DNA of 64,000 bases from the NCBI RefSeq assembly GCF_018967645.1, contig NZ_JAHLZF010000001.1:62001-126000 (forward strand). The letters are read 5' to 3'. This stretch comes from Allobacillus halotolerans. GTDB taxonomy: Bacteria; Bacillota; Bacilli; Bacillales; Alkalibacillaceae. Under the pieces are notes generated by a model. The model saw only the letters and a list, made by a program, of their open reading frames with translations. It did not search any database and was not told where the DNA came from. The position numbers were made by a program, and so were the translations under genes. Shown in pieces: positions 15,130 to 22,010 of this stretch (the first letter of the stretch is position 1; each line of letters starts with the position of its first letter).

Positions 15130-15288
15130 GAAAGTGCAATAAAGATGTGAAGGATTTGGTTTTTTTTGGCAAGTGATTGATGAATTTCAGATGGTGAATC
15201 ATTGATCTTGCAAACGAACTAGTCACTTTACATGTTATTGTGAATATCACACACCATCAGGTGAAAGTTTTTAGGAGGATTTATTTAA

Positions 15289-15489
15289 ATGGAAAACGGC
15301 GTAGTAAAATGGTTTAATGCTGAAAAGGGCTATGGATTCATTCAAGTTGAAGGTGGAGACGATGTATTCGTACACTACTCTGCAATTCAAGAAGAAGGAT
15401 TCAAAACATTAGATGAAGGTCAAGAAGTTGAATTTGAAATTGTGGAAGGCGACCGCGGACCACAAGCAGCTAATGTAAATAAAAAATAA
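15289..15489 (+). CDS. Cold-shock protein (CspA/CspB family)
   Basis: This 66-residue single-stranded nucleic-acid chaperone folds as one OB barrel. RNP1 is KGYGFIQ and RNP2 is VFVHYS, and VKWFN precedes them as in all members. It binds nascent mRNA and melts secondary structure, especially in the cold. Which csp paralogue (B, C or D) it corresponds to cannot be decided here. It is monocistronic, with its own promoter, long leader, AGGAGG site 10 nt before ATG, and strong terminator. Confidence 0.95.
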
Positions 15490-15506
15490 TAAACAAAAAA
15501 TATACC

Positions 15507-15546
15507 CTGGCCAAGCCTATCGTAGGTTTGGCCAGTTTTCTTTTTG
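15507..15546 (+). terminator. Rho-independent terminator after csp
   Basis: CTGGCCAAGCCTA and TAGGTTTGGCCAG form a 13-bp stem (one G-T pair) with a 3-nt loop, followed by TTTTCTTTTT. Confidence 0.9.
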
Positions 15547-15576
15547 ATAAACACACATAAAATTTTCAATCAGCTA

Positions 15577-15605
15577 TTGTTTATTTTCTAATTCTTTATT
15601 ATGCT
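15577..15605 (+). promoter_or_regulatory. Putative SigA promoter of the riboswitch-controlled transporter
   Basis: TTGTTT (15577-15582) and TATGCT (15600-15605) have a 17-bp spacer. The predicted start near 15612 falls just before the preQ1 aptamer, as expected for a leader made only of the riboswitch. Confidence 0.5.
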
Positions 15606-15618
15606 TATAGTTGTTTTA

Positions 15619-15658
15619 AACGCAGTTCGCAAAATCCTGCGTAATCAAAACTAAGGAG
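15619..15658 (+). promoter_or_regulatory. preQ1-I riboswitch (translational type)
   Basis: ACGCAG (15620-15625) and CTGCGT (15637-15642) form stem P1 around the loop TTCGCAAAATC. The A-rich linker AATCAAAACTAAGGAG follows. The tail AAGGAG is both the pseudoknot partner of the loop and the Shine-Dalgarno of the gene at 15667. This layout is that of class I preQ1 aptamers such as the one from Thermoanaerobacter tengcongensis. Ligand binding would hide the ribosome site and shut off uptake of queuosine precursor when preQ1 is plentiful. The downstream transporter family supports the call. Confidence 0.85.
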
Positions 15659-15666
15659 TGGTTTGA

Positions 15667-16347
15667 ATGTCAAACGAAGTATTATGGTTAATTTTTGCAT
15701 TGGTCAATTTCTTATTGGTCATATTTATCTATCGTATTTTTGGGAAAAATGGTTTGATTGTTTGGATTGGGATGTCCACCGTACTCGCAAATATGCAGGT
15801 GTTGAAAACAGTAGAATTATTTGGTGTGACGGCGACGTTAGGGAATATCGTTTATGGAACGATTTTTCTCGCAACAGACATCATCAACGAAAAATACGGT
15901 AAAGAAGAAGCACGAAAAGCAGTGTGGTTAGGCTTTTACACGTTGATTACGATGACTATTGTCATGCAATTTGCCTTGCTATTTCAACCGCATGAATCAG
16001 ATGTTGCCCATGAAGCACTTTCGGATATTTTCAGTCTTGTTCCGCAAGTGGCGGTTGGTAGTTTGCTGGCATATATCATCAGTCAGAACATTGATGTCGT
16101 TATATTTGCGAAATTAAAGAGCAAATTTGCCGGAACGAAATTTTTATGGATACGTAATAACTTAAGTACTATGATCAGTCAGTTGATTGATACGACGATC
16201 TTCTCAGTTATAGCATTTTGGCATTTCCTAACGACGGATATGAGTGTGTGGCTTTCCATTTTCCTTTCAACTTATGTCATCAAATTTCTCGTATCAGCAC
16301 TGGACACACCGTTTATGTATATGGCCAAGAAAATCCATAAATCATAA
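15667..16347 (+). CDS. ypdP: Queuosine precursor transporter (YhhQ/VUT family, YpdP-like)
   Basis: This 226-residue integral membrane protein has about six helices and the family signature GNIVYGTIFLATDIINEKYG near residues 57-76. The family (DUF165/VUT_1, COG1738) includes E. coli YhhQ, shown to import queuosine precursors preQ0/preQ1. B. subtilis YpdP belongs to it. The preQ1-I riboswitch directly upstream, whose last bases form the ribosome site, strongly supports preQ1-class substrate specificity. The gene is monocistronic, with a bidirectional terminator behind it. Confidence 0.9.
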   Translation: MSNEVLWLIFALVNFLLVIFIYRIFGKNGLIVWIGMSTVLANMQVLKTVELFGVTATLGNIVYGTIFLATDIINEKYGKEEARKAVWLGFYTLITMTIVMQFALLFQPHESDVAHEALSDIFSLVPQVAVGSLLAYIISQNIDVVIFAKLKSKFAGTKFLWIRNNLSTMISQLIDTTIFSVIAFWHFLTTDMSVWLSIFLSTYVIKFLVSALDTPFMYMAKKIHKS

Positions 16348-16395
16348 TTGAATTCCCCTGTTAAAGTAATCAACGTTAATACTTAACAGAACCAT

Positions 16396-16444
16396 AAAAA
16401 AAGGATGCTACAAGTCTTATGAACACGTAGACATCCTTTTTTTT
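16396..16444. terminator. Bidirectional terminator between ypdP and rhodanese
   Basis: AAAAAAAGGATG-CTAC and GTAG-a-CATCCTTTTTTTT form a long stem with one bulge. A and T runs on both sides suit convergent transcription. Confidence 0.85.
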
Positions 16445-16457
16445 ACATTCACTTCAC

Positions 16458-17288
16458 CTATTTTTTGGTTTCTACGGGATTCTGGTCATTCGAAATCCAG
16501 TCACTGAAACTTCCCGGGTATAGCTTCACATTCTCGTAGCCTGCTTGCAATAAGGCTAAGACATTCGGTGTTGCCGTTACACCAGAGCCACAATAAACAA
16601 TCACTTCCTTATTCCGGTCGATTTCTTGAAAATGTTTATTAATTTCTGGCTGGCTTTTCAACTGTCCATCTTCAAAAAGTTGTGACCAATCATAATTCAC
16701 AGCACCTGGTATATGCCCTGCTTTGTGGTCGATTGGTTCGATTTTTCCACTATACCTTTCAGCACTTCGTGAATCAATCAAGGTTACATCTTCATTATTG
16801 AGCTTTTGTTTCACTTCTTTCTGATTGACCATAAGCTTTTCGTTTACTTGAAAATCTCCGTACGTTACAGGTTCTTTTTCGACCGAACCCGATTCAGTAG
16901 GAAAACCATGATCTTTCCACGCAGTGAAACCCCCATTCAATATCGAAATGTTTGAATGGCCGATGACCATTAGCATCCAATACATCCTAGAAGCAAAAGC
17001 ATGATTATCATCATAAACAATGACTTCGGTATTCCGGTCAATTCCTCGATCGCCTAGTTTTTGAGCAAATGCTTGCCAATCTGGAAGCGGATGCCTACCA
17101 CCAATTCGATGTTCATGCACAGGGTCACTGAGATCACTGTCTAAGTTGAAATAGACGGCACCAGGTATATGGGCGGAACGATAATCCATTTCCCCTTTCG
17201 ATGTGTCTTGTAAATCGAAGCGGCAATCCACAAACTGTACGTTCGAATCTTTCCATTTTTGATAAGCCTCATCTACTGAAATAAACAT
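16458..17288 (-). CDS. sseA: Two-domain rhodanese sulfurtransferase (SseA-like)
   Basis: This 276-residue protein has two rhodanese domains. The first (about 1-130) is inactive in the loop position; the second carries the catalytic C233 in VYCGSGVTAT. The CGSGVTA loop is the mercaptopyruvate-type sequence rather than the thiosulfate-type CRxGxR. It moves sulfane sulfur to thiol acceptors in the cytoplasm. Its ATG shares one base with the stop of the methyltransferase gene upstream (TAATG), so it is translationally coupled to the polyketide genes. The reason for this link is unknown. Confidence 0.9.
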   Translation of the reverse strand: MFISVDEAYQKWKDSNVQFVDCRFDLQDTSKGEMDYRSAHIPGAVYFNLDSDLSDPVHEHRIGGRHPLPDWQAFAQKLGDRGIDRNTEVIVYDDNHAFASRMYWMLMVIGHSNISILNGGFTAWKDHGFPTESGSVEKEPVTYGDFQVNEKLMVNQKEVKQKLNNEDVTLIDSRSAERYSGKIEPIDHKAGHIPGAVNYDWSQLFEDGQLKSQPEINKHFQEIDRNKEVIVYCGSGVTATPNVLALLQAGYENVKLYPGSFSDWISNDQNPVETKK

Positions 17289-21610: not shown

Positions 21611-22010
21611 GATAAATGCTACATAAGCCATGTTCTGTTCCTTTGTACTGCAAACGGTGGTCAGCCTCGTACTCCGGTGTAACCATCTATCTGCAGACTT
21701 GTCTAGCAAGCCTGCCTCTATGCTAGGTTGAATTCCCTGCAATAGAGCGCCCCTACCTTATTTTGGGTTTCTCACTCGAGGGGTTTACCGCGTTCCACCT
21801 TGATTGTTTCCAATCAAGCTCGTCTCTGTGGCACTTTAAAGGGTCATGGACCATATCCATTAAGGACGTAGGTCGAAACCCTGCCGTCAGCGATTCTTCG
21901 CTGCCTTGACTTATTGTTTCGTCAAGCACGAACACTACAAGCATCTCAGCTTGTGTGAGCATGGACTTTCCTCTCGCAAACATGTGCGAGCGGTTACTTG
22001 AGCATTTATC
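21611..22010 (-). ncRNA. rnpB: RNase P RNA component (type B)
   Basis: The minus strand carries the universally conserved 5' core GAGGAAAGTCCATGCTC and a 3' end containing ACAGAACATGGCTTATG. The ends pair as a perfect 10-bp helix P1, GATAAATGCT with AGCATTTATC, which sets the RNA at about 400 nt. This is the size of the Bacillus type B ribozyme, which matures tRNA 5' ends with RnpA. Its place between gpsB and ypsC is as in B. subtilis. GGTCATTTTTTT just past P1 is a likely 3' stop signal. Reading frames inside it are spurious. Confidence 0.96.

Follow-up and report, generated by a model that had tools for sequence, protein, structure and literature searches.

Three motifs mark class I preQ1 riboswitches of type I, UU after the 5' strand of helix P1, UC before its 3' strand and a CUA in the tail (PMC11625349, PMC8752633), and these riboswitches bind two stacked preQ1 molecules (PMC8752633). 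In the structure from Carnobacterium antarcticus (Can), as given in the cited part of PMC8752633, the key residues of the alpha and beta sites are U6, U7, U16, C17, A30 and C31, and helix P2 consists of the contacts C8-A12-U32 and G9-A33, with a C10-G34 pair hypothesised only. The targets named for type I in the cited part of PMC11625349 are queCDEF and queT. The yhhQ leader of E. coli belongs to type III (PMC10622847), and yhhQ, which RegPrecise names YpdP, stands under various preQ1 riboswitches in different bacteria (PMC5372724). The same source indicates that E. coli YhhQ seems to be a better carrier of preQ0 than of preQ1, and Zallot et al. suggested specificity subgroups of YhhQ from sequence networks (PMC5372724, section 2.4).

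The locus described here lies in a window of 64,000 nucleotides, the whole stretch of Allobacillus halotolerans DNA that was analysed. It is very probable that almost the whole yhhQ leader in this window is a class I type I preQ1 riboswitch, which would lower translation of the transporter at high preQ1 and thereby exert feedback on uptake. With the Can riboswitch of RF00522, the aptamer shares all of U6, U7, U16, C17, A30 and C31, the bases of the C8-A12-U32 and G9-A33 contacts and a Shine-Dalgarno sequence (SD) directly behind CUA, whereas its loop has 11 nt against 12 in the Can numbering, an extra A stands between CUA and GGAG, and the gene is yhhQ (cited part of PMC8752633). With the E. 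coli type III leader it shares the target gene family, an SD at the aptamer and the UU motif, but it has UC rather than AC, no pyrimidine-rich loop and CUA in the tail, and the predicted stoichiometry differs (cited part of PMC10622847). The RegPrecise preQ1 riboswitch-YpdP regulon, as cited in PMC5372724, likewise places a preQ1 riboswitch upstream of COG1738/YpdP. A literature search recognised no publication on the pairing of type I with yhhQ in this lineage, which is not proof of absence.

The yhhQ leader and its gene

Read from the sequence, the aptamer occupies 15620-15658 (+) as ACGCAG-UUCGCAAAAUC-CUGCGU-AAUCAAAA-CUAAGGAG, and the gene begins 8 nt after its end. Residue numbers are those of the Can structure, with residue roles taken from the cited part of PMC8752633. 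The features, in window coordinates, are:

15507-15535, + strand: predicted intrinsic terminator downstream of the cold-shock gene that precedes yhhQ (13-pair stem, loop of 3, T tract)
15577-15611, + strand: weak candidate promoter (TTGTTT 15577-15582, 17 nt, TATGCT 15600-15605; or -10 TATAGT 15606-15611)
15620-15625, + strand: P1 5' strand ACGCAG (RF00522 and leader alignments; outermost A-U pair not conserved)
15626-15636, + strand: loop UUCGCAAAAUC, 11 nt, with U6 and U7 (alpha and beta sites), C8, G9 and A12 (P2), U16, and C17 (preQ1 specificity base)
15637-15642, + strand: P1 3' strand CUGCGU (two P1 pairs altered on either side, 25 cells)
15643-15650, + strand: A-rich L3 linker AAUCAAAA (RF00522 and leader alignments)
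15651-15654, + strand: P2 3' strand CUA(A), with C31 (beta site), U32 opposite A12 and A33 opposite G9; CUA is 15651-15653
15653-15658, + strand: SD AAGGAG (from sequence), followed by an 8-nt spacer and the ATG at 15667
15667-16347, + strand: yhhQ/ypdP, 226 aa, queuosine-precursor transporter (Vut_1; PF02592, TIGR00697)

The assignment of the gene to the YhhQ/VUT transporters, made in an earlier sequence-only reading, holds: the protein scores 177.7 bits against PF02592 (cut-off 27.2) and 226.4 bits against TIGR00697, 'queuosine precursor transporter' (cut-off 50.95), and stays below the narrower model PRK11212 (70 against 252). The nearest named YhhQ proteins among the matches listed are those of A. 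saliphilus (94%) and A. salarius (93%); phmmer at E 0.01 returned no homologue of solved structure.

Transcription of yhhQ is separated from the upstream cold-shock gene by the terminator at 15507-15535. The same reading had placed the promoter start right at the aptamer, and this finds more support in the relatives than in the window: across 58 distinct leaders the end of the best-scoring -10-like box lies 0-36 nt upstream of the five-pair P1, with a mean score of 9.4/12 against 7.3 for shuffled sequence, so that the very short leader it proposed is likely, whereas the window has no + strand sigma-70 site reaching 9/12 in 15440-15760 (best 8/12) and scores lower than the relatives average at the same place. 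Behind yhhQ, no terminator was found in 16300-16500; the transcript nevertheless probably holds the one gene, since the next gene-sized frame (16458-17288) lies on the other strand. As a separate observation, a cspA thermoregulator-like RNA is matched at the upstream cold-shock gene (15186-15480; RF01766, 48 bits, under the cut-off of 78), and RF01766 is also matched upstream of yhhQ in 16 of 19 named loci, over the cut-off in 9 of the 19, at varying distance.

A match below the Rfam cut-off

RF00522 (preQ1-I) covers 15616-15660 over the full model length, with 27.3 bits and E 0.00093 in a search of 281 bases against 4227 families. None of the other 14 RF00522 matches (15 in all at E up to 10) in the 2.72-Mb genome scores as high, the next lying 7 bits lower. 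Since 27.3 bits is under the gathering score of 39, which is a screening rule, the aptamer is absent from the output of a default Rfam scan of the window, which reports RNase P alone (bacterial class B RNA, 21619-22005 on the - strand, 306 bits). The earlier reading had suggested a covariance search and named the lack of a hit as grounds for refutation; the search does yield a full-length match, and at the default cut-off that refutation is triggered falsely. The same holds more widely: of 19 named yhhQ loci, chosen from the 67 that carry the aptamer, 17 matched RF00522 at E up to 1, one of them over the cut-off (L153, 39.1 bits; next L151, 38.7), and none of the 11 yhhQ1-linked matches among those listed exceeds it. 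The default cut-off thus hides most of the tested aptamers of this yhhQ-linked lineage. The leader of E. coli K-12 yhhQ (L156, 2677-2711), a proven type III riboswitch, has no RF00522 match at E up to 10 in 161 bases.

Conservation and covariation among relatives

A protein search detected YhhQ-like genes in 37 of 60 genomes, among which the host's is counted; by identity to the window protein they fall into Y1 (yhhQ1; 47-100%, 27 genomes) and Y2 (yhhQ2; 35-46%, 20 genomes). A second, named set holds the best 80 of at least 465 confirmed loci and overlaps the first in genomes. The same aptamer stands before yhhQ orthologues in 67 of the 80 named loci (66 by a parser, L141 by model) and in 18 of the 27 Y1 loci (16 by parser, L031 and L034 by model). 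Two further Y1 loci (L033 and L035) carry a different aptamer. By parser and model together, no aptamer was found before yhhQ1 in 13 of the 80 and 7 of the 27, which indicates that the control is dispensable. The strict parser requires five P1 pairs; L031, L034 and L141, which it missed, were left out of the alignment of 58 distinct leader sequences, as were L033 and L035, which pass the parser and differ in loop and tail.

In this alignment the inner five of the six P1 pairs are standard in 58/58 leaders and the outermost in 10/58. Pair 3-24 is changed on both sides in nine sequences (C-G to U-A or A-U) and pair 6-21 in sixteen (G-C to A-U), and the P1 covariation score is 0.236 against 0.136 for shuffled alignments, a value that none of 500 shuffles reached, with slid controls at 0.008-0.121. 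Two of the five P1 covariation measures do not exceed shuffles, namely the number of pairs changed on both sides (2 against 2.8) and of further pair types (5 against 6.0), each value being reached by 500/500 shuffles. U6, U7, A12, C17, A30, U32 and A33 are invariant (58/58), C8, G9, U16 and C31 are present in 57/58, and A28-A30 in 57, 57 and 58. Of the features that mark RF00522, about five P1 pairs with covariation support, a specificity base C preceding the P1 3' strand with an A-rich L3, and a position before a queuosine gene are found in the yhhQ leaders. The loop has 11 nt in 56 leaders and 12 nt in two; its length is not special, given that 11-nt loops also occur in other preQ1 leaders of relatives with scores over the cut-off (for example L040).

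The best RF00522 match of the genome, the recurrence in 67 of 80 named loci and the compensatory changes in P1 bear out the preQ1-I aptamer that the sequence-only reading had recognised, and the window aptamer is a real, ordinary member of a known riboswitch class.

The sole natural C31U change in the alignment (L028) lies before a yhhQ with a damaged reading frame, as relaxed selection would give. Broken yhhQ1 frames behind a recognisable aptamer occur in G003:C33 (L028, L167) and G014:C8 (L034), both in genomes that also carry a queF-yhhQ2 operon; the break in G014 may be an assembly fault, that genome being just 82% complete.

A model built from the 58 yhhQ1 leaders alone (R1) was run over the 60 genomes. 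Its 33 top matches, from 65.1 down to 36.9 bits, all precede queuosine-salvage genes: 18 abut yhhQ1, 14 precede queF followed by yhhQ2, and one (G029) precedes queF without yhhQ2. Gene context was judged by coordinates, and in G009 and G029 also read in sequence. Of the 18 yhhQ1 matches, 16 belong to the training set or repeat one of its sequences and so carry little weight; the independent test is given by the 15 queF cases, which lie outside it. From 35.3 bits down, R1 finds other preQ1 leaders that RF00522 also finds and, further down, chance-like matches.

Subtype and predicted ligand

The sequence-only reading left the subtype unnamed. UU, UC and CUA are all present in the window aptamer, and by these motifs it is type I, not type II or III and not the type III of E. 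coli. Given the conservation of the type I residues, two stacked preQ1 per RNA are predicted by homology. A side observation concerns L033 and L035 (G020 and G013; 1449-1489), where an orthologous yhhQ, 48% identical, stands behind a different aptamer, CAGCAG-UUACCCAAAAC-CUGCU followed by AUAAAAAAAUUAAGGAG, in which AC precedes the P1 3' strand and the loop has a CCC (RF00522 14.8 bits for L033, R1 22.2 bits). Its motifs appear closer to type II/III. Since type III is almost confined to gamma-proteobacteria (PMC10622847, cited part), these two loci may represent a subtype swap before the same gene.

The predicted pseudoknot, the Shine-Dalgarno sequence and the probable mode of control

The SD begins with the A or As of the P2 3' strand CUA(A) (15651-15654). 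By the type I structure, P2 comprises CUA and perhaps the next G, and here it would reach no further into AAGGAG than its first A or AA. The P2 contact bases are conserved, yet A12-U32 is unchanged in 58/58 and C10-G35 shows no covariation above shuffles; jointly, the score of these two pairs was reached by 140/500 shuffles. C10-G35 (columns 12-38) is a standard pair in 31/58 leaders, position 10 being C in 19, A in 19, U in 13 and G in 7, and C in the window. The commonest tail is CUAAGGA (37/58), followed by CUAGGAG (9/58), and the remainder have other spacings; in L029 and L031 the SD starts 4 and 7 nt beyond CUA, clear of the pseudoknot. That the ribosome binding site takes part in the pseudoknot, as the earlier reading held, is thus only partly correct, since in the window just the first A or AA of the SD would be involved. 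Given the variable spacing and the lack of covariation at C10-G35, the switch most likely limits ribosome access through partial burial of the SD and proximity to it, with no complete helix over the SD.

With the end of P1 24 nt upstream of the start codon, translational control is most likely. In the mechanism that we propose, scarce preQ1 would leave the 3' tail free, ribosomes would bind AAGGAG and the transporter would be made. At high preQ1, two stacked molecules would bind between P1 and P2, one contacted by C17, A30 and U6 and the other by C31, U7 and U16, so that CUA and the first A or As of the SD would be trapped in the pseudoknot and less of the transporter would be translated. The switch would in this way close a feedback loop on preQ1 uptake.

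Alternative explanations

Three other readings of the leader could be considered. A chance hairpin beside an SD, with no riboswitch, would sit well with the sub-threshold Rfam score and with the ordinary fold energy of the 79-nt leader (z -0.43), which makes the evidence for the aptamer comparative, not energetic. It is exactly the comparative result that refutes it, namely conservation and covariation over 58 distinct leaders and an R1 model with all 33 top matches in front of queuosine-salvage genes, in 15 cases a gene outside the training set, and its probability is close to nil. An aptamer of type II or III that follows the E. coli yhhQ pattern, with a single preQ1 and a loop that pairs with the SD itself, is very unlikely. 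The controlled gene is yhhQ as for type III (PMC10622847, cited part), AAGG lies within the tail, and UU after the P1 5' strand is common to type III as well (PMC11625349, cited part); against these stand C31 before UA in 57/58 leaders, UC in place of AC before the P1 3' strand, and a window loop, UUCGCAAAAUC, that is not pyrimidine-rich as the E. coli loop, UUCCCUCAC, is. By the last two differences in motif, type III in its E. coli yhhQ form was rejected.

The remaining alternative accepts a preQ1-I aptamer and lets it act by transcription termination or mRNA decay instead of translation. Among the relatives, several other preQ1 leaders have an apparent hairpin and T run behind them, judged by eye (L040, L047, L052); the window leaves just 24 nt between P1 and the start codon, and a scan between aptamer and start codon found no terminator-like site, which makes this reading very unlikely.

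Queuosine genes and two YhhQ clades

The search for queuosine genes covered tgt, queA, queG, queC, queF, queT and queH. The genome carries tgt (612 bits), queA (485) and queG (411), all over cut-off, with tgt and queA side by side. No match was found in it to queF, queT or queH, and queC was represented just by a 23.6-bit match (positions 4-59 in a 619-aa frame; cut-off 150.3). At 95.55% completeness in 94 contigs, these absences could be gaps; the congener G001 (98% complete) likewise has neither queF nor an over-cut-off queC. The host thus seems unable to make preQ1 itself and probably salvages it, with YhhQ as the likely importer; lacking queF and an over-cut-off queC, it would most likely import preQ1 itself. 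The earlier proposal that the riboswitch ties YpdP-like proteins to preQ1 uptake gains support from this, and it is not new, preQ1 control of YpdP/YhhQ having been published (PMC5372724, cited part). Transfer of the substrate from E. coli YhhQ was rejected, as that protein shares about 27% identity with the window protein and sits on a branch too long for it to be placed.

In a tree of E. coli YhhQ with 20 Y1 and 18 Y2 proteins the two groups separate (support 97/88 for Y2, and 88/73 for Y1, which is drawn open), some long rows, those of E. coli, L177 and L033 being placed with little certainty. All 20 Y2 genomes have queF, which adjoins Y2 in 19 (exception G048). Among the 60 genomes, 19, the host's own included, are without an over-cut-off queC. 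Seven of these have no queF, and six of the seven carry Y1, none Y2 and one (G027) neither; the 12 with queF include 11 with Y2 and 10 with Y1 (G014, one of the 12, is only 82% complete). Over the 19, the association of Y2 with queF gives a Fisher p of 0.00016, with kinship ignored. The queF split points to Y1 as a preQ1 importer and Y2 as a preQ0 importer. Against this, 11 genomes that possess queC as well as queF also carry yhhQ1, which is hence not confined to salvagers. Whether in these Bacillota the two clades do divide the substrates under one shared riboswitch lineage, the lone, type I-controlled YpdP clade of the window taking up preQ1 and sufficing in genomes that lack queF, and the queF-linked clade taking up preQ0 for reduction, we regard as an evenly balanced question.

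Overall, the locus joins a compact, predicted two-ligand switch and a single target in a host seemingly dependent on preQ1 uptake, so that transporter specificity and switch response could be tested together in one organism. Further, the queF split makes one of the YhhQ specificity subgroups of Zallot et al. directly testable (PMC5372724, cited part). Finally, if the division of substrates between the clades is true, both routes by which preQ1 is salvaged would be under the control of one and the same two-ligand sensor.
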